Counted from the first letter of the stretch, positions 18,684 to 26,720 are shown. The stretch is DNA of 64,000 nt from Alphaproteobacteria bacterium (GCA_021774575.1 JAJFIX010000009.1:1-64000); one strand, 5' to 3'. The notes: a model not told the origin generated them from the sequence alone. A program made the numbers and translations.

Positions 18684-19973
18684 TCACCGGTCACGCGAGG
18701 GACCACGAATACGGGGGCGGAACTGTTTAACAGGCTTTGCATCCTTCATGACTTGGCGACGTAGCGTTGCAAAATGCTGATAGAATTGTGAACCCAGTTC
18801 CAAACCCTGAATTTGCTTTTGGTATGCGCTGCGATCACGCGTTTGCACGAGAGAGATTTGTTTGCGCTCTTCAAGATGGTGAAAGACCAATGCGTCTTTC
18901 CGGCTCCGCTCACGCAACAGGCCTTCATAGGCATCACGCTCGTTATGCGCTTGGATGCGCCTATGCTCGCCGCGAACGCGGTCCCATATACCGCCAATCC
19001 CGGTGCGAAAACGCGCCTGCCGCCACTCGTTCTCCTCGACACGGCGTATCTCTATTTTCTGGCTCAGGGTTTGGCGTTCATTGCGTTGGCGCTCAACAAG
19101 CGTTTTTCGCAAGCGCTCAAATTCAGAACGATGTTTCTTATCTTGTTCCTCAAGTTTGCGTTGGAAACCATCCAGCTTTGAGAGCATTACCTCCGAAATT
19201 TGCTCTTTGACCTCTGCCACGCTTGGCAGGTCGTTTTCATCGCCAAGGCGGGCACGGATCCCTTTCGTTTTGACATTCGCCTGCCGGGGGATCGAGTAGA
19301 CTTCACCGTAAACATCCACGGCAACAAACCCCCGCCGATCCCCACGCGCGACTTTGTAACCCCGCTCGTCCATCGCATGGACAAACGCCGCTTTTGAATC
19401 CGATATTGCCCACGAATCCTGAAACGCCGTCTTGATCGCGCGTGGGTCTTTATTTATGCGCTTGGCCTGTTGCCATTCCGCCAATGAAAAATTCTTGGGA
19501 TCGCGTAGCTCGCTGTTGGCAAGGCCTTCGGGCATTTTCCAGCCATGTTCAATGAACAACTCGCGCGAAATTGCCTTGAGTTTTTGGTGATCGAACGACA
19601 ACTGCACGGCTTTCATCTCATCCGCGTCAATTCGGCTCCACACCGCATGAGCATGGCGGCGGCCCTGTTTTTCGTGAAAAACGATAACGCGGGGCTGGCC
19701 GGACAGGCCCAGCTTTTTCTCGACCTTCTCGATTGCCGCCTCAAAATCAGCCGTTCCGACCTTTTCAGTCTGAGGCGGATTGAGGGACAGAGAATAGAGA
19801 TACTGTTTGCATTTGGTGCCCCTGCTGACCGCGTAGGCCTCGTTCAGTGCTCCCATCAGGTTTGCGGGCGCGAAGCCACGAATCTCATGCAGCTCAACAT
19901 GCTCATTTTCGTCTTTCATGAGGTGCAGCGCCAAATCTTTGGCACCGCCGCGCTGATTGCCATTGAGGATCAT
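18684..19973 (-). CDS. Relaxase/mobilization nuclease (MobA/VirD2-like)
   Basis: 429 residues. Residues about 1-150 form the relaxase domain: MILNGNQRGGAKDLALHL at the start and the histidine motif RVIVFHEKQGRRHAHAVWSR (His100, His107, His109), the metal-binding HUH-type cluster of mobilization relaxases. The catalytic Tyr is probably among Tyr58/Tyr60 (KQYLYSLSL). The C-terminal two thirds is a long charged, coiled-coil-like region. It would nick at oriT and lead the strand into the recipient. Its start overlaps the stop of the MobC-like gene by 4 bp. No coupling protein or mating-pair genes are present, so it would need a helper element. Confidence 0.88.
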   Translation of the reverse strand: MILNGNQRGGAKDLALHLMKDENEHVELHEIRGFAPANLMGALNEAYAVSRGTKCKQYLYSLSLNPPQTEKVGTADFEAAIEKVEKKLGLSGQPRVIVFHEKQGRRHAHAVWSRIDADEMKAVQLSFDHQKLKAISRELFIEHGWKMPEGLANSELRDPKNFSLAEWQQAKRINKDPRAIKTAFQDSWAISDSKAAFVHAMDERGYKVARGDRRGFVAVDVYGEVYSIPRQANVKTKGIRARLGDENDLPSVAEVKEQISEVMLSKLDGFQRKLEEQDKKHRSEFERLRKTLVERQRNERQTLSQKIEIRRVEENEWRQARFRTGIGGIWDRVRGEHRRIQAHNERDAYEGLLRERSRKDALVFHHLEERKQISLVQTRDRSAYQKQIQGLELGSQFYQHFATLRRQVMKDAKPVKQFRPRIRGPSRDR

Positions 19974-20404
19974 TGTGCTTTGATCCCCAAGGCTTCAATA
20001 AGCTCAGCCCGCATCTGCCCAATGGCCTCGCATGCCTCGTGGAGCTCTTGTTCCAGGTCCGACGTTACGGGAAGAGCGCCAACATTGGCGGCCTTGGCTA
20101 GTTGGTTGAGGTTCGAGGCAAGCCGCGACCGCCCCAGCCCACCGAGCATGTGACCGAGAACGGCAAGCTCCGCAGACGGTTGCTGCCGCTTCCGGATCAG
20201 TTTCCGTGGCGACGCGGAGGGGTCGCCATCGCAAAAGAGATTCAGTCGGATATATGTCGCCAGCGAGAGCGTTCCGGCGTCGCGGTTTAGCTGCGCCCGT
20301 TCCTCGTCAGTAAACCGGATGGAATAGGGCGGTGAGTGTTTGGCCGCTTTGGGCCTATCCGCCGCCGATTGAGAAAACGCCCGTGATGTGGAGGAACCGT
20401 TCAT
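19970..20404 (-). CDS. mobC: MobC-like relaxosome accessory protein
   Basis: 144 residues with a ribbon-helix-helix-like N-terminal segment (YSIRFTDEERAQLNRDAG, LSLATYIRLNLF) and a second conserved helix (LAVLGHMLGGLGRSRLASNLNQLAKAAN), which matches the MobC family of relaxosome proteins that bind oriT and help the relaxase. It lies directly upstream of the relaxase gene with a 4-bp overlap, the usual order. Together they mark a mobilizable plasmid remnant or integrative mobilizable element. Confidence 0.82.
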   Translation of the reverse strand: MNGSSTSRAFSQSAADRPKAAKHSPPYSIRFTDEERAQLNRDAGTLSLATYIRLNLFCDGDPSASPRKLIRKRQQPSAELAVLGHMLGGLGRSRLASNLNQLAKAANVGALPVTSDLEQELHEACEAIGQMRAELIEALGIKAQ

Positions 20405-20824: not shown

Positions 20825-21853
20825 ATGAGCGAGTCATTTGTTAAAGGTCAACCCGGTTATCCCGGCGAAACAGGTTTTGGAACGGATAATCAATTCGACG
20901 GAAATTTTGGCCTGCGTGGGGCTTCGCCGGTTACACGGATTGACGAAGCCGTTATCCAGCAGACAATCGAAGATCAGGACTATCGAGAACTTGAAGTCGC
21001 CTTCGATATGGATGAGCGGATCTTGTGGTACGCGATGAACCCCGAAAACCGGCCAAGTTACACGGTAGGGTTGATACAGGAAATTCGCCGATTGCAAGAT
21101 TGTGTGAGTTCGGTGTTCGCGCGCAGCCCAGATACGATGGGGCCTCCTATCCGCTATATGGTGTTGGGATCGGCGTTACCAGGGATATTCAATCTGGGTG
21201 GCGATCTCGGCCTGTTTGCCCAGCTAATCAGGCAAAAAAACCGTAGCGCCTTGAAAAGTTATGCCCGGCTGGCGATCGGCGCGGTCCATACGAATGCGGT
21301 TAATTTGAATTTGCCTATGATCACCATTTCCCTGGTTCAGGGCGACGCGCTGGGCGGTGGATTTGAAGCCGCCTTGTCGAGCAATTTGTTGATCGCCGAA
21401 CGCGGTACTAAATTTGCCTTGCCGGAAATTCTGTTCAATCTCTTTCCGGGTATGGGGGCCTATAGCCTGCTGACACGTAAAATCGAGCCGGTCTTGGCCG
21501 AGAAAATGATATTTAGCGGTAAGGTCTATGAGGCCGAAGAGCTACATGAGATGGGCGTCGTTGATATCCTCGCCGATCCCGGTGACGGGCGGGCGAAGGT
21601 CTACGAATATATCGAGCGCAACACCCAGCTTCATTCGTCCCATCGGGCGATCTATAAAGTGCGCCAGCGGGTCAACGGTATTGATTATTCGGAAATGGCC
21701 GATATTGCCGATATCTGGGTCGAGGCCGCCTTGTCTCTGGGGGTGGCGGACTTGCGTCGCATGGATCGCTTGGCGTCGGCACAAGATAGAAGATGGCTAA
21801 AGACGAAGTCGCATCAAGCGCCGATTAGCTCGCTGGATTTGGTTTCGGTCTAG
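20825..21853 (+). CDS. rpfF: RpfF-like DSF (diffusible signal factor) synthase, crotonase superfamily
   Basis: 342 residues from ATG 20825 (GGAGAG 7 bp upstream; an in-frame ATG at 20684 would add 47 unconvincing residues). The core matches RpfF: FNLGGDLGLFAQLIRQ, ISLVQGDALGGGFEAALSS, FALPEILFNLFPGMGAYSLL, and the tail SEMADIADIWVEAALSLG with DLRRMDRL. Both glutamates that act in RpfF (Glu141 and Glu161 in Xanthomonas) are present as Glu181 and Glu201. RpfF makes cis-2-unsaturated fatty acid signals from acyl-ACP by thioesterase and dehydratase activity. An N-terminal extension of about 40-50 residues is extra. It is convergent with the RpfC-like kinase; both stop codons share the CTAG at 21850-21853. 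This convergent rpfF/rpfC order is the one known from Xanthomonas. Confidence 0.9.
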   Translation: MSESFVKGQPGYPGETGFGTDNQFDGNFGLRGASPVTRIDEAVIQQTIEDQDYRELEVAFDMDERILWYAMNPENRPSYTVGLIQEIRRLQDCVSSVFARSPDTMGPPIRYMVLGSALPGIFNLGGDLGLFAQLIRQKNRSALKSYARLAIGAVHTNAVNLNLPMITISLVQGDALGGGFEAALSSNLLIAERGTKFALPEILFNLFPGMGAYSLLTRKIEPVLAEKMIFSGKVYEAEELHEMGVVDILADPGDGRAKVYEYIERNTQLHSSHRAIYKVRQRVNGIDYSEMADIADIWVEAALSLGVADLRRMDRLASAQDRRWLKTKSHQAPISSLDLVSV

Positions 21854-24708
21854 AGAGACGCACTCAATTGAAGGCCGGTTCTTCTTTTGACCTCATGAGT
21901 GAGTTCCACGCTTGCCGCGTCGAATTCAATTTGTAATTCGCTTAAGAGAGCCTGGCCTTTTGTGGCGATATCAGTGTTTTCCAATTCATGGAGCTCTTTG
22001 CAGCGAGCGCGAACGCGGTGAGCGCCGACATGGGCGGCGCTGCTGCGTAACGAGTGAACGGCGCGACGGATGCTAGAGAGGCTGTCAGATGTGACGGCGC
22101 GCTCGATGTCGCCCATCAATTCCCTGCCGTCAGCGAAAAATTCATCGACGACTTCAGCAAAAAATTCTTTTTCGGTGTCGAGCTGCCATAGATCCTCAAG
22201 TGCTTTGGGGTCGAGGATCGACGACGAAATCAAACGCAAATGGGGCGTTGATTGAATCGGCGCGGGTTCGGTGTCGTCGGCTAGCATGGGAGCTGTACCC
22301 GAAACCCGTTCGAGACCATGGCGTTCTCTATGGGCGGCAGCGATATCTTCTATTTCAGCGATCAATTTTGCCGGTTCAACCGGCTTTGTTATGACCGCAT
22401 CCATACCCGCGCTGAGGCACCAGTCTCGTGTCGAGACGGTTGCATCTGCGGTGAGTGCGATAATCGGCAATGGCGGTTCATCCATATGCGCCATGCGGTA
22501 ATGTTTGGTCGTTTCAGGTCCGTTCAGACCCGGCATATTGACGTCCAAAAGAGCAAGGTCGAATGAATTTTCTTCCAGTGCATCCAGCGCATCATCGCCA
22601 TTTGTAACGATTTCGACATGATGCCCAGCCCTGGTGAGAATTTTGCCAACGACCTTGCGATTAACCGCGTTGTCGTCGGCGACCAAGACAGTCAAAGGCT
22701 CATTTGTGGTGCCCCGCCCTTCCTGTGTATTTTCGTCGGCCTCAACACCGACCGGGCGGATCATTTGTTCACCTAGGTGCAAAGCATTGAAAAATTGATC
22801 GCGGTCCAGGGGGGTGCCGAGAACGGTTAGATAGGGTGGATGTGCCTTATCTATGCTGGCAGTCATTTGCCCAAACCCGTCAGACCCCTTGTCGGAAATC
22901 AGAACGAAATGCAGTACTCCATCGCCACGGGCTTGGCTCAGCGGTGTCAAAATATCGGCGATGACCGGGTCGTGGCCGCGATCCCCGATAATAAGGATGC
23001 GGTGGGCGGATCCTTCTCTGTCTTCCAAACAATGGGATGCCGCTTCGCCGATGTTATCTGTGATAAAGGCGTCGATACCAAATTCAGCAAGCGCCGTCGC
23101 GGCGAGGTCCGGTGTGTCCTCGTCTCTGACGTCGGTTAGATATGTGACCTGGCCGGCTTCAAAAGAGAGCTCATCTTCAGATTTTTCGTTTGGCGCAAAG
23201 TTGATTTCAAACGCGAAACGACTTCCTTCGCCAACAGTGCTTTCTACTGTCATTTGCCCGCCCAACAGCTCGACAAGTTGGCGTGAAATGGCGAGACCAA
23301 GCCCCGTACCCTCGATACGGTCGGTTTCGTTACTCTCGACCCGGGCGAAACTGTCGAAAATCGTATCGATATTCTCTTCGGGGATGCCGATACCACTATC
23401 TTCGACGCAAAACCTTAATGCTGCCCTGTCGTCTGTTAATTCACCGGCGGTGACGCGAATGGCGACATAGCCTTCGTGGGTAAACTTGATCGCGTTGGCC
23501 ACCAAATTGACCAATATGCCTTGCAGTCGTTCGGCGTCACCTGAAAGACGGTAGGGTATTTTTGGGTCCACCGACACGATGAGCTGCAGACCTTTTACCT
23601 CCGCTAATTGGTGGGTGAGGAGACGAACCGCTGATAGGCGTTGGTGTAAATCGAAGGGCGCGTGAGTTAGCGCCGGTCCACCGATTTCAATTTTTGAGAA
23701 ATCTAATATGTCGTTAACTTGTGCCAACAGGCTATGGGCGGCGGTGGAAATCGTTCCCGTCATATCCTTTTGGTCACTATCCAGGCTTGTTACATGCAGC
23801 AAGTCTCCCATGCCGATAATAGCGTTTAGCGGGGTACGCAGCTCGTGGCTCATACGGGCAAGAAATTGACTTTTTGCCTGATTGGCATCTTCGGCCAGGG
23901 CAACGGCCTCGGTCAGTTTAGCAATCAGTGTCGATACATAGCCGGGCAGCAAAATCAGGGCGCCGATTAGCCCGACGGTCAACAGCATATGTTGTTGCCA
24001 TAGCGGTGTCGTCGCAATCACCGCAATAAAACTGACCACACTGAAGGTCGCCGATAGGAGCAGATAACGGTTGCCGTAGCGAAAGCCGTTCCCAAATGTC
24101 ACCCAGAGATAGATGATAAACCACGGCGTCGCAATTTCAGCACCCAAGTGTAAAACCCAAGAGAGCACAATCAAGTCCGTTAGCATCGCCAGGATACGGC
24201 GTGGGACAGACCGCGCCGGCTTCCACCATAGGTGAAACAGGAACAACCATGAGACCGCCATTCCAACCGAGCCAACGGTCACGGCCGCTGCGGCCGAAGG
24301 TTCGGCGCCGATCAGTCGACCGGTGAGGGTCAGTGTCCCGATAATAATAGCCATGAGGACAAGACGGAGAACGATCTGTTCATGTTCGCTATCGCCGCGC
24401 GCGGCAAATTTACCGACGATTGTTTGGGGGCCTTTGCGCAGTGAGATGACCAGAAAACAAGTAGGTAGAACCAGCATGGAGACGAGCAGCAGGAGTTGGC
24501 TCGCACCGAAGGTAAGCCCGCTATTTGAGACCCCCAAGATATCCAAATAGGAGACAATTGGCACCACGCCGACGCTTGTTAACGCAACGATGATGGCAAT
24601 GCCGCGATTTCGGTCGCGATTCTTGGCCATTTCTTTGACCGTGGACTCCGTGGGGTGAACAGCCGTATCGGGACGACTGCTCTCAATTTTAGAGCTTGCA
24701 AAGGTCAT
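21850..24708 (-). CDS. rpfC: RpfC-like hybrid sensor kinase (7TM-like sensor, HK, receiver, HPt)
   Basis: About 952 residues from ATG 24708 (a TTG at 24729 is in frame). In order: about seven hydrophobic segments in the first 265 residues, including WFIIYLWVTFGNGFRYGNRY, which closely resembles the RpfC sensor; HisKA with SHELRTPLNAIIGMG (His about 288); HATPase with NLVANAIKF, DSGIGIPEE and GTGLGLAISRQLVELLGG; a degenerate receiver-like spacer; a true receiver (VLVADDNAVNRK, phosphoacceptor Asp in LALLDVNMPGLNG, Lys in ITKPVEP); and an HPt domain (RAVHSLRSSAAHVGAHR). In Xanthomonas RpfC senses DSF, binds and restrains RpfF through its receiver, and phosphorylates RpfG. The same roles are inferred here. 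Confidence 0.88.
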   Translation of the reverse strand: MTFASSKIESSRPDTAVHPTESTVKEMAKNRDRNRGIAIIVALTSVGVVPIVSYLDILGVSNSGLTFGASQLLLLVSMLVLPTCFLVISLRKGPQTIVGKFAARGDSEHEQIVLRLVLMAIIIGTLTLTGRLIGAEPSAAAAVTVGSVGMAVSWLFLFHLWWKPARSVPRRILAMLTDLIVLSWVLHLGAEIATPWFIIYLWVTFGNGFRYGNRYLLLSATFSVVSFIAVIATTPLWQQHMLLTVGLIGALILLPGYVSTLIAKLTEAVALAEDANQAKSQFLARMSHELRTPLNAIIGMGDLLHVTSLDSDQKDMTGTISTAAHSLLAQVNDILDFSKIEIGGPALTHAPFDLHQRLSAVRLLTHQLAEVKGLQLIVSVDPKIPYRLSGDAERLQGILVNLVANAIKFTHEGYVAIRVTAGELTDDRAALRFCVEDSGIGIPEENIDTIFDSFARVESNETDRIEGTGLGLAISRQLVELLGGQMTVESTVGEGSRFAFEINFAPNEKSEDELSFEAGQVTYLTDVRDEDTPDLAATALAEFGIDAFITDNIGEAASHCLEDREGSAHRILIIGDRGHDPVIADILTPLSQARGDGVLHFVLISDKGSDGFGQMTASIDKAHPPYLTVLGTPLDRDQFFNALHLGEQMIRPVGVEADENTQEGRGTTNEPLTVLVADDNAVNRKVVGKILTRAGHHVEIVTNGDDALDALEENSFDLALLDVNMPGLNGPETTKHYRMAHMDEPPLPIIALTADATVSTRDWCLSAGMDAVITKPVEPAKLIAEIEDIAAAHRERHGLERVSGTAPMLADDTEPAPIQSTPHLRLISSSILDPKALEDLWQLDTEKEFFAEVVDEFFADGRELMGDIERAVTSDSLSSIRRAVHSLRSSAAHVGAHRVRARCKELHELENTDIATKGQALLSELQIEFDAASVELTHEVKRRTGLQLSASL

Positions 24709-24761
24709 ATTCGTTCCACTACGGGCCAACGCGGAAACTAAATGTTTCCAGGGCTAATGCG

Positions 24762-26720
24762 TCAGGTAACTCTTTTTCCGAGCGGTATCCGGATGGTGGC
24801 GGTTGTGCCAACACCCAATTCGCTCGTCAGTTCGATACTGCCGCCATGCATGGCGGCAATCTGGCGGGCTAGAGATAGTCCCAACCCGGTTCCTTCGTGG
24901 CTTCTTGTCATTACATTTTCGAGCTGGCGGAAAGGCAGGAATGCCGCTGGAATATCGCGCGCAGCCATGCCAATGCCGGTGTCTCGAATGCTCAATTCGA
25001 TAATTCGGCCGGCCCCTTCATCGCGGTAGGTCGAGCCAAAAGTTATGGTTCCACCGCCTTGGGTGAATTTTAGGGCGTTGGAAACCAGGGCGGACGCCAT
25101 GCGCTCAATGAGCCGGGCATCACCCTCAATCGGCTCGATCTGATAATCAAGATCGCTCGTCAGTATAATATTTTCGTTGGTTGCGCTTTCTCTGCATTCC
25201 GCCATCAAGCCAATCATTAGGCGGTTGAGGTCTACCGCAGTGGTTTCAAGCGGCACCGTTCCGTCTTCAAATTGCGAATATTCTAGAATGCGTTCGATCA
25301 GGGTCAATAAATGCTCGCCACTGGAATAGATGTCTGTCGCGTAGTCTTTGTATGGTGCTTGGCCGACAGGACCCAGGGTTTCGGCCGAGATCATCTCGGA
25401 AAATCCCATGATGTGGTTCAACGGCGTTCGCAGCTCGTGGCTCATTGCGGCAAGAAACTTGGTTTTCGCGTGGCTTGAAATTTCAGCCGCTTCTTTGGCT
25501 CGGGTCAGGGCATCCATCGCTTGGCGTCGTGCGGAAATATCTGTGGCGACCGTCAGGACTTCGACCTCGCCGGTCGAAAAAATAAACGGAACCTTTACCG
25601 CCTGCATAAACATGGTCTTGTCGCGGCCTATGAAGCGTTGCTCAGACTGAACAACGGGCCGTCCCGACTCCAAAACCTGGGCGTGAATAGCGCGATCTTC
25701 CTTGATTAACTCATCGGCCGGCACATGGTCAGCCAGCCGGGTGCCGATCATGGCGTCCGGGGTTGTGCCAAGCGCCCCGGCGAGAGCCAGGTTAACTAAG
25801 GTAAACCGACCATCTTCATCAGTTGCCGAGACGAAATTGGGAATGTTGTCCAGGATCACGCGCAATCTATTTTGTTGATGTGCTGCTATGCGTTCAACCC
25901 GTTTGCGGTCCGAAATATCCAGCGACACGCTAACCACCGAGGCGACGCCATTGCTCGGTGTGCGGATTGGCGATTTGACGGTCAAATAGGTTCGTCGCTC
26001 GCCGATCATGTCGACCAATTCTTCTTCGAAGGTCGGCAAGCCTTTGCCTGTTTCTAAAATTTCTTGATCGAGTTTGCGATGCCGTTGGGAATCGAATTCG
26101 TTGAGAATATCTTCGTAAGTTTGGCCGACGATTTTTTCGCTGGTCGCACCATATTGCTGAGCGAAATAGGAATTGACCGCCCGATAGCGTCCTTTGGGAC
26201 CGGTGACACTGATGAGCGCAGGGACCGCGTCAATCACCTGGCGTAAGAAATCTTTTGATTCAGCAATTTCTTCCTTCAACAGCTCGGTATTGCTGACCAT
26301 GCGGGACTCTAGAAGTTGAGTTTTTTCGCTGGCCTGCTTTTGCTGTTGCCGCATACGCAGGAAATTTCGAATACGTGCCTGGAATTCTTGATGGTCGACC
26401 GGCGACAACATGAAATCCGTTGCACCGACCTCTAACGCGTCATAGCGCGACTGTTTATTTTCATAGGCCGTAACGACGATCACCGGCACGTCGTAGCACA
26501 TCGGCATGGCGCGAAAATGGCGGGTAAATTCAGCCCCGTTCATATGCGGCATTTCAAAATCGGTGACGACTAAATCGGGTGCTTGCCGGGCCGCATCCTC
26601 TATGGCATCGCGGGGATCGGCAAAGGTTTTGATATCGGCGCCAGCCTCTGCTGCAAGCGCGAGTCGTTTAAGCACCTTGCGATTCGTCGCCCGGTCGTCG
26701 ATTACATAAATCATGTTCAT
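24762..26720 (-). CDS. Receiver-PAS-PAS histidine kinase with an RpfG-like N-terminal receiver
   Basis: 652 residues. Residues 1-125 are a receiver domain (MIYVIDDRATNRKVLKR, Asp54 in LVVTDFEMPHMNG, FRAMPMCYDVPVIVVTAY) followed by FLRMRQQQ and a coiled linker; this arrangement resembles the RpfG receiver and linker. Instead of HD-GYP it carries two PAS domains (about 155-275 and 285-405), HisKA (SHELRTPLNHIMGFSEM, His428) and HATPase (SNALKF, DTGIGM, GTGLGLSLARQIAAMHGG). The receiver has Ser106 where the conserved Lys should be (FMLSPVD), so phosphorylation or its read-out may be altered. It lies 53 bp upstream of the RpfC-like gene on the same strand, so the two kinases are probably co-transcribed. 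It may take RpfG's place as the RpfC partner (inference). Confidence 0.85.
   Translation of the reverse strand: MNMIYVIDDRATNRKVLKRLALAAEAGADIKTFADPRDAIEDAARQAPDLVVTDFEMPHMNGAEFTRHFRAMPMCYDVPVIVVTAYENKQSRYDALEVGATDFMLSPVDHQEFQARIRNFLRMRQQQKQASEKTQLLESRMVSNTELLKEEIAESKDFLRQVIDAVPALISVTGPKGRYRAVNSYFAQQYGATSEKIVGQTYEDILNEFDSQRHRKLDQEILETGKGLPTFEEELVDMIGERRTYLTVKSPIRTPSNGVASVVSVSLDISDRKRVERIAAHQQNRLRVILDNIPNFVSATDEDGRFTLVNLALAGALGTTPDAMIGTRLADHVPADELIKEDRAIHAQVLESGRPVVQSEQRFIGRDKTMFMQAVKVPFIFSTGEVEVLTVATDISARRQAMDALTRAKEAAEISSHAKTKFLAAMSHELRTPLNHIMGFSEMISAETLGPVGQAPYKDYATDIYSSGEHLLTLIERILEYSQFEDGTVPLETTAVDLNRLMIGLMAECRESATNENIILTSDLDYQIEPIEGDARLIERMASALVSNALKFTQGGGTITFGSTYRDEGAGRIIELSIRDTGIGMAARDIPAAFLPFRQLENVMTRSHEGTGLGLSLARQIAAMHGGSIELTSELGVGTTATIRIPLGKRVT

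Follow-up and report, generated by a model that had tools for sequence, protein, structure and literature searches.

In Xanthomonas, RpfC signals to the c-di-GMP phosphodiesterase RpfG, and DSF signalling is usually portrayed as a route into c-di-GMP via RpfG or RpfR. The locus described here raises the question of where the signal goes when the protein in the place of RpfG is a histidine kinase. It lies in a 64,000-nucleotide stretch of DNA from an Alphaproteobacteria bacterium (GCA_021774575.1, JAJFIX010000009.1:1-64000), the whole of which is referred to as the window. An earlier note on this DNA had proposed that the DSF signal is routed here into a second kinase and not directly into c-di-GMP breakdown. 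The rpfF and rpfC genes are convergent and their stop codons overlap (21851-21853 and 21850-21852), and a gap of only 32 bp separates the kinase gene from rpfC on the same strand (Table 1). This packing suggests that the kinase gene, as the first gene, and rpfC probably form a two-gene operon that converges on rpfF. The real start of the RpfC-like protein may be further downstream than the TTG that we list. The cassette contains no response regulator, and promoter and terminator scans of the locus gave little that was usable. A MobA/VirD2-type relaxase gene (window 18684-20404; Pfam Relaxase, 1.2e-16) lies between succinate dehydrogenase genes and rpfF, overlapped upstream by a small gene that is MobC-like from its position only. 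The idea that the cassette is a recent island beside mob genes was unsupported, as the GC content is even and there are no notable flanking repeats and no tRNA.

Table 1 Features of the rpf-type locus, in window coordinates.
Feature	Coordinates	Strand	Details and basis
rpfF, DSF-type synthase, crotonase fold	20825..21853	+	342 aa; ATG at 20825; stop ends 21853
Codons of E181 (21365-21367) and E201 (21425-21427), with the stretch between	21365..21427	+	RpfF alignment, n=25
rpfC-like hybrid histidine kinase	21850..24729	-	959 aa; TTG start 24729
RpfC-type membrane sensor core	23890..24417	-	Alignment and hydropathy
R-G-D-S-E-H-E-Q, residues 111-118	24376..24399	-	Equivalent to Xanthomonas RpfC R15, D17, S18, E19, Q22
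RpfC HisKA and HATPase_c (H295)	23197..23877	-	Pfam and alignment
RpfC receiver (D729, K782 present)	22351..22689	-	Pfam and alignment
RpfC HPt domain (H892)	21964..22155	-	Pfam and alignment
RpfG-position kinase, REC-PAS_4-PAS-HisKA-HATPase	24762..26720	-	652 aa; just upstream of rpfC
RpfG-type receiver (D8, D9, D54, T84 present)	26367..26711	-	Pfam, receiver tree and alignment
Codon of Ser106, replacing the conserved receiver Lys	26403..26405	-	Receiver alignment
PAS_4 domain, common to GGDEF-EAL relatives	25899..26231	-	Pfam and pairwise comparison
Second PAS domain, missing in one-PAS relatives	25536..25868	-	Pfam
HisKA, phospho-acceptor His428	25260..25469	-	Pfam and alignment
HATPase_c (N, G1, G2 boxes intact)	24777..25124	-	Pfam and alignment

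The domain structure of the kinase agrees with the PAS-PAS-HisKA-HATPase output, in place of HD-GYP, that had been described for it: Pfam places Response_reg at residues 4-118, PAS_4 at 164-274, PAS at 285-395, HisKA at 418-487 and HATPase_c at 533-648, and the catalytic residues (H428, N548, and the G1 and G2 boxes) are intact. We read the corresponding gene in other rpf-type loci and found three kinds of output behind the receiver. In Alphaproteobacteria it is a PAS-histidine kinase in 21 proteins from 10 families and PAS-GGDEF-EAL in four proteins, and in other proteobacteria it is HD-GYP. In a tree of 69 receivers (122 columns), 12 of the kinases, a smaller set than the final 21, grouped with seven RpfG-position proteins in one clade (support 100/98), separate from 21 RpfC receivers and from 29 other receivers of the window's genome, which were drawn from the best 30 of 46 matches; many inner forks of this tree were unresolved, and the kinase/RpfG branch was strong. 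Together with the rpfG-like position and orientation of the gene, this phylogeny bears out the proposed resemblance of the receiver to RpfG. A single scan of genome contigs with the kinase returned generic REC, PAS and kinase proteins only.

We consider it very probable, judging from sequence, that this is a DSF cassette in which the output at the RpfG position has been swapped, and likely that the signal passes from RpfC to the kinase. The overall explanation that we favour, with moderate confidence, is that RpfC's partner in this DSF cassette kept the RpfG receiver and changed its output to a kinase. A cis-2-unsaturated fatty acid made by RpfF would bind RpfC, and phosphoryl groups would then move within RpfC from H295 to D729 to H892. 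From H892 the signal would reach D54 of the kinase receiver, or would be transmitted through docking onto that receiver. Receiver input, direct binding of a ligand by PAS_4, or both, would set the kinase/phosphatase balance of H428. Because no receiver stands behind the kinase core, the kinase must act on another protein, which would be a separate response regulator, the foremost candidate being one of the DivK type feeding CtrA.

The receiver itself complicates the simplest form of this pathway. D8, D9, D54 and T84 are kept in all 19 kinases checked. In the kinases, the conserved receiver Lys, which links phosphorylation to conformational change, is replaced by Ser (20 of 21) or Thr (one), and each of the four GGDEF-EAL proteins likewise carries Ser. 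Among the HD-GYP proteins that fall in the RpfG receiver clade, six have Lys and one (L114) has Arg. The replacement is inherited from a common ancestor and amounts to roughly a single event. Since this Lys couples phosphorylation to conformation, its loss makes an altered or non-phosphorylation-dependent receiver input possible. Such a receiver may not answer phosphorylation as RpfG does, or may serve only for docking, and ordinary phospho-switching is not assured in any of the 25 alphaproteobacterial receivers. This bears on a plain phosphorelay, in which RpfC would phosphorylate the receiver normally and so switch the kinase, with the PAS domains integrating redox or some other cue. The phosphorylation residues of both the HPt domain and the receiver are indeed present, and haem, flavin or small metabolites are frequent ligands of PAS domains. 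However, the Lys is lost in all members, and although we take the plain phosphorelay seriously we are inclined to doubt it.

Another route to the kinase could run through its first PAS domain, which is a PAS_4 and is retained also in relatives with a different output. In Xanthomonas, the PAS_4 histidine kinase RpfS binds DSF through its PAS_4 domain (PMC4504480). Because this is the same type of domain, the kinase may itself sense DSF, which we consider plausible by analogy. We tentatively suggest that the RpfG branch in Alphaproteobacteria was rebuilt as a receiver-PAS_4 unit with exchangeable outputs, in which the receiver is non-canonical or serves for docking and PAS_4 reads DSF directly. 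If so, one protein would integrate membrane sensing of DSF, through RpfC, with cytoplasmic sensing, and a lineage without c-di-GMP enzymes would have connected its quorum sensing to a two-component network, for instance DivK-CtrA. The PAS_4 domain and the lost Lys could also be explained if the kinase were an independent, soluble RpfS-type DSF sensor that neighbours rpfC and whose receiver gets no phosphate from RpfC. This we consider rather unlikely, however: the RpfG-like receiver has been kept, and retention of D8, D9, D54 and T84 in every kinase checked suggests selection on receiver function. Furthermore, the gene order with rpfC is fixed, and RpfS as published has no RpfG-type receiver.

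Our preferred reading, in which RpfC signals to the kinase, also depends on whether the locus is a DSF system at all. The Pfam domain of RpfF is ECH_1, and the protein scores 353 bits, above the cut-off of 177, with the NCBIfam model PRK08788 for the crotonase/enoyl-CoA hydratase family. Its four closest PDB chains are all of the RpfF family (7zq7, 1.7e-53; 3m6m, 3e-53; 6dgn; 5fus). The two catalytic glutamates reported earlier, E181 and E201, are indeed both there, and Glu occupies both columns in 25 of 25 aligned RpfFs. On this basis RpfF is predicted to produce a cis-2-unsaturated fatty acid.

The receptor was similarly recognisable. HisKA, HATPase_c, Response_reg and Hpt domains were all detected by Pfam in one protein, which with the overlapping stop codons confirms the RpfC-like kinase (sensor, kinase, receiver and HPt) described as convergent with the rpfF gene. 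Compared with the solved RpfC receiver 3m6m_D, its own receiver gives a match of 8e-20, and receivers of other hybrid kinases score similarly. The protein has the phospho-residues H295, D729 and H892 as well as Lys782 in its receiver, and its sensor region aligns with the sensors of RpfCs that adjoin true rpfG genes. The sensor had been called 7TM-like, and hydropathy does give about seven to eight segments; this count is approximate, and two of the segments belong to an N-terminal extension beyond the core sensor. Xanthomonas RpfC is described with five transmembrane segments (PMC4504480), so the 7TM-like label is a rough one. Mutational work showed that DSF sensing by Xanthomonas RpfC requires R15, D17, S18, E19 and Q22 (PMC5391125). 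The equivalent R, D, S (T in one protein), E and Q are all kept in the window's RpfC and in 17 kinase-type relatives with a readable rpfC, a count that leaves out L213, where the sequence aligned as RpfC is the kinase itself. The RpfCs of the GGDEF-EAL loci L105, L107 and L108 lack the full set.

These observations can be set against the view that the locus is not a DSF system and that its RpfF-like protein is simply a lipid-metabolism crotonase. The protein reaches only 209 bits with the narrow RpfF model NF053515, under its cut-off of 550, and in same-family relatives rpfF adjoins an acyl-CoA dehydrogenase gene. Nevertheless, its nearest solved structures are RpfFs, its catalytic glutamates are kept, and its gene always adjoins an RpfC with the DSF-sensing residues kept, which makes an ordinary crotonase very improbable.

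How widely the kinase output is shared was evident from the distribution of the cassette. A complete cassette, with rpfF convergent on rpfC and the kinase in place, was found in 17 genomes of nine families: the window's genome and six of its family (G004, G007, G008, G013, G015 and G020), and ten genomes outside that family (G030, G037, G038, G466, G488, G490, G518, G591, G717 and G761). Four further cassettes (G010, G023, G480 and G610) run off the end of a contig or were seen only in part. The corresponding protein of locus L209 is a histidine kinase with equivalents of H428 and N548. Of 385 sampled genomes of the class, 23 gave a hit with the kinase (E<=1e-70), some of these hits covering the PAS-kinase part alone. 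Thus, as far as sequence can tell, the kinase output is a conserved alphaproteobacterial form common to at least ten families and not a one-off. A chance neighbourhood, in which the kinase would have no relation to the rpfFC pair next to it, would draw on the REC-PAS-kinase proteins that are common in the class, yet it is refuted by the receiver phylogeny and by an arrangement fixed across many families, whose recurrence in so many genomes lies far beyond chance, and we regard its probability as negligible.

Comparison with the other outputs suggests how the kinase came to stand here. In other proteobacteria, a receiver-HD-GYP protein occupies the same place in the same orientation (L114, L118, L119, L121 and L123, assigned by gene order, with Pfam confirming HD-GYP in L114 and L123). 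In four Alphaproteobacteria (G150, G246, G317 and G435) the place of rpfG holds a receiver-PAS-GGDEF-EAL protein. The window's kinase is 43% identical to the protein of G150 over residues 1-298 (1e-77), and past residue 298 there is no significant alignment between the two apart from PAS to PAS. That the similarity stops at this point indicates that the C-terminal output was exchanged, and in those sister loci, with GGDEF-EAL at the same place, the receiver-PAS unit does point at c-di-GMP. A tree of receiver and PAS united the alphaproteobacterial proteins (100/98), with the GGDEF-EAL type as one group (96/92), and did not settle whether the kinase or the GGDEF-EAL output came first. 

We also searched the window's genome (3.5 Mb in 46 contigs, 96.93% complete) for c-di-GMP enzymes. 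Domain searches found no HD-GYP, no GGDEF (none even at E<=1) and no EAL match, and a PleD with a GGDEF domain was not found. The same searches gave three to seven GGDEF and one to four HD-GYP matches in the same-family genomes with the cassette, indicating that the absence is a trait of the window's genome and not of the cassette. Consequently, this organism has no known enzyme through which the signal could lead to c-di-GMP breakdown, unless all such enzymes lie in the missing few percent, and the canonical RpfG elsewhere in the genome that could have displaced the kinase as RpfC's partner did not appear. Together with the receiver tree and the position of the gene, this supports the earlier proposal that the signal would be passed to a second kinase. 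The relatives have 23 HD-GYP proteins; those that are readable gave no match with the two-component receiver model and are thus not a hidden RpfG. Three genomes of the window's family (G000, G001 and G014) have no GGDEF match, and two of these three also lack a close rpfF. Loss of c-di-GMP enzymes in this family may have happened more than once.

PdhS-like kinase cores, which are common in Alphaproteobacteria, offer one lead to the target of the kinase. For the kinase cores of L211 and L044 the best-ranked model is PdhS, and for the window's core PdhS and TorS come out level, in every case below cut-off. DivK and CtrA are both encoded in the genome: the former scores 197 bits to Caulobacter DivK (1m5t), the latter 417 bits against a cut-off of 350. 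PdhS is a kinase of the cell cycle, and its relatives have DivK and PleD as targets (PMC7003649). DivK-CtrA is our leading guess for the target, and a weak one, because such cores are common and the window's scores equally with TorS. The core resembles that of PdhS; unlike the PdhS, DivJ and PleC kinases, the window's kinase scores below the curated cut-offs and has an RpfG-type receiver in front.

The cassette shares with the Xanthomonas RpfF-RpfC-RpfG system its RpfF, its RpfC-type sensor-HK-REC-HPt protein, the convergent order and an RpfG-type receiver adjoining rpfC. It differs in having a PAS-PAS-histidine kinase instead of HD-GYP, in the Ser for Lys in the receiver, in lacking an rpfB next to rpfF, and in that no c-di-GMP enzyme is detected in its genome. 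RpfS (XC_2579) likewise carries PAS_4 on a soluble, DSF-linked histidine kinase, a likeness by domain type with RpfS taken from its description; unlike the window's kinase, it lies outside rpfFCG. The RpfF-RpfR systems of Burkholderia and Cronobacter also pair RpfF with a neighbouring sensor-output protein, whereas they have no RpfC and the output of RpfR is GGDEF-EAL. DSF routes independent of c-di-GMP are known for PA1396/PA1397 of P. aeruginosa and BCAM0227/0228 of B. cenocepacia (PMC4504480), where a DSF-family signal passes via a histidine kinase to a regulator, so that a DSF route free of c-di-GMP is no novelty as such. In contrast to the window, these pairs have neither an RpfG-type receiver nor a second kinase, and PA1396 has no HPt. 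In Lysobacter, RpfG acts independently of c-di-GMP with HtsH (PMC8463545), and here too an RpfG receiver protein is tied to two-component proteins. However, the Lysobacter RpfG is a genuine HD-GYP enzyme whose binding partners are separate hybrid kinases, whereas receiver and kinase are one protein in the window. In the open-access literature, which leaves subscription papers largely outside, our searches turned up no account of a kinase fused to an RpfG-type receiver or of the alphaproteobacterial cassette. The wide occurrence of the kinase output suggests that what is conserved in the RpfG branch is the receiver rather than the phosphodiesterase. The cassette could serve as a natural system for studying DSF action without c-di-GMP, and the identity of RpfC's partner in Alphaproteobacteria becomes a directly testable question.

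Several related loci differed in composition. In four loci of the window's family (L037, L039, L040 and L042), a gene for an acyl-CoA dehydrogenase of 550-570 aa lies just upstream of rpfF on the same strand; in the window no such gene adjoins rpfF. Locus L244 (G246:C44:44001-63000) has rpfC and a receiver-PAS-GGDEF-EAL gene, with no rpfF either within the 19 kb that were read or in the genome at E<=1e-40, and this bacterium is possibly a listener to a signal that it does not itself produce. In G037, a second RpfC-like hybrid kinase (L046:10142-12490) stands on the other flank of rpfF from rpfC. On plasmids of Methylobacterium radiotolerans and Sphingomonas parapaucimobilis (L100 and L101), rpfF is convergent with a gene for an EAL-domain protein with a GGDEF motif, and these RpfR-like pairs indicate that Alphaproteobacteria have two kinds of DSF locus. 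Plasmids of Bosea sp. RAC05 (L102) and Bosea sp. ANAM02 carry two and three rpfF-like places, respectively. Finally, two 99.8-kb E. coli plasmids (NZ_CP060058.1 and NZ_CP060062.1; H15 and H16) encode an RpfF-like crotonase with 38.5% identity over 60% of the query.
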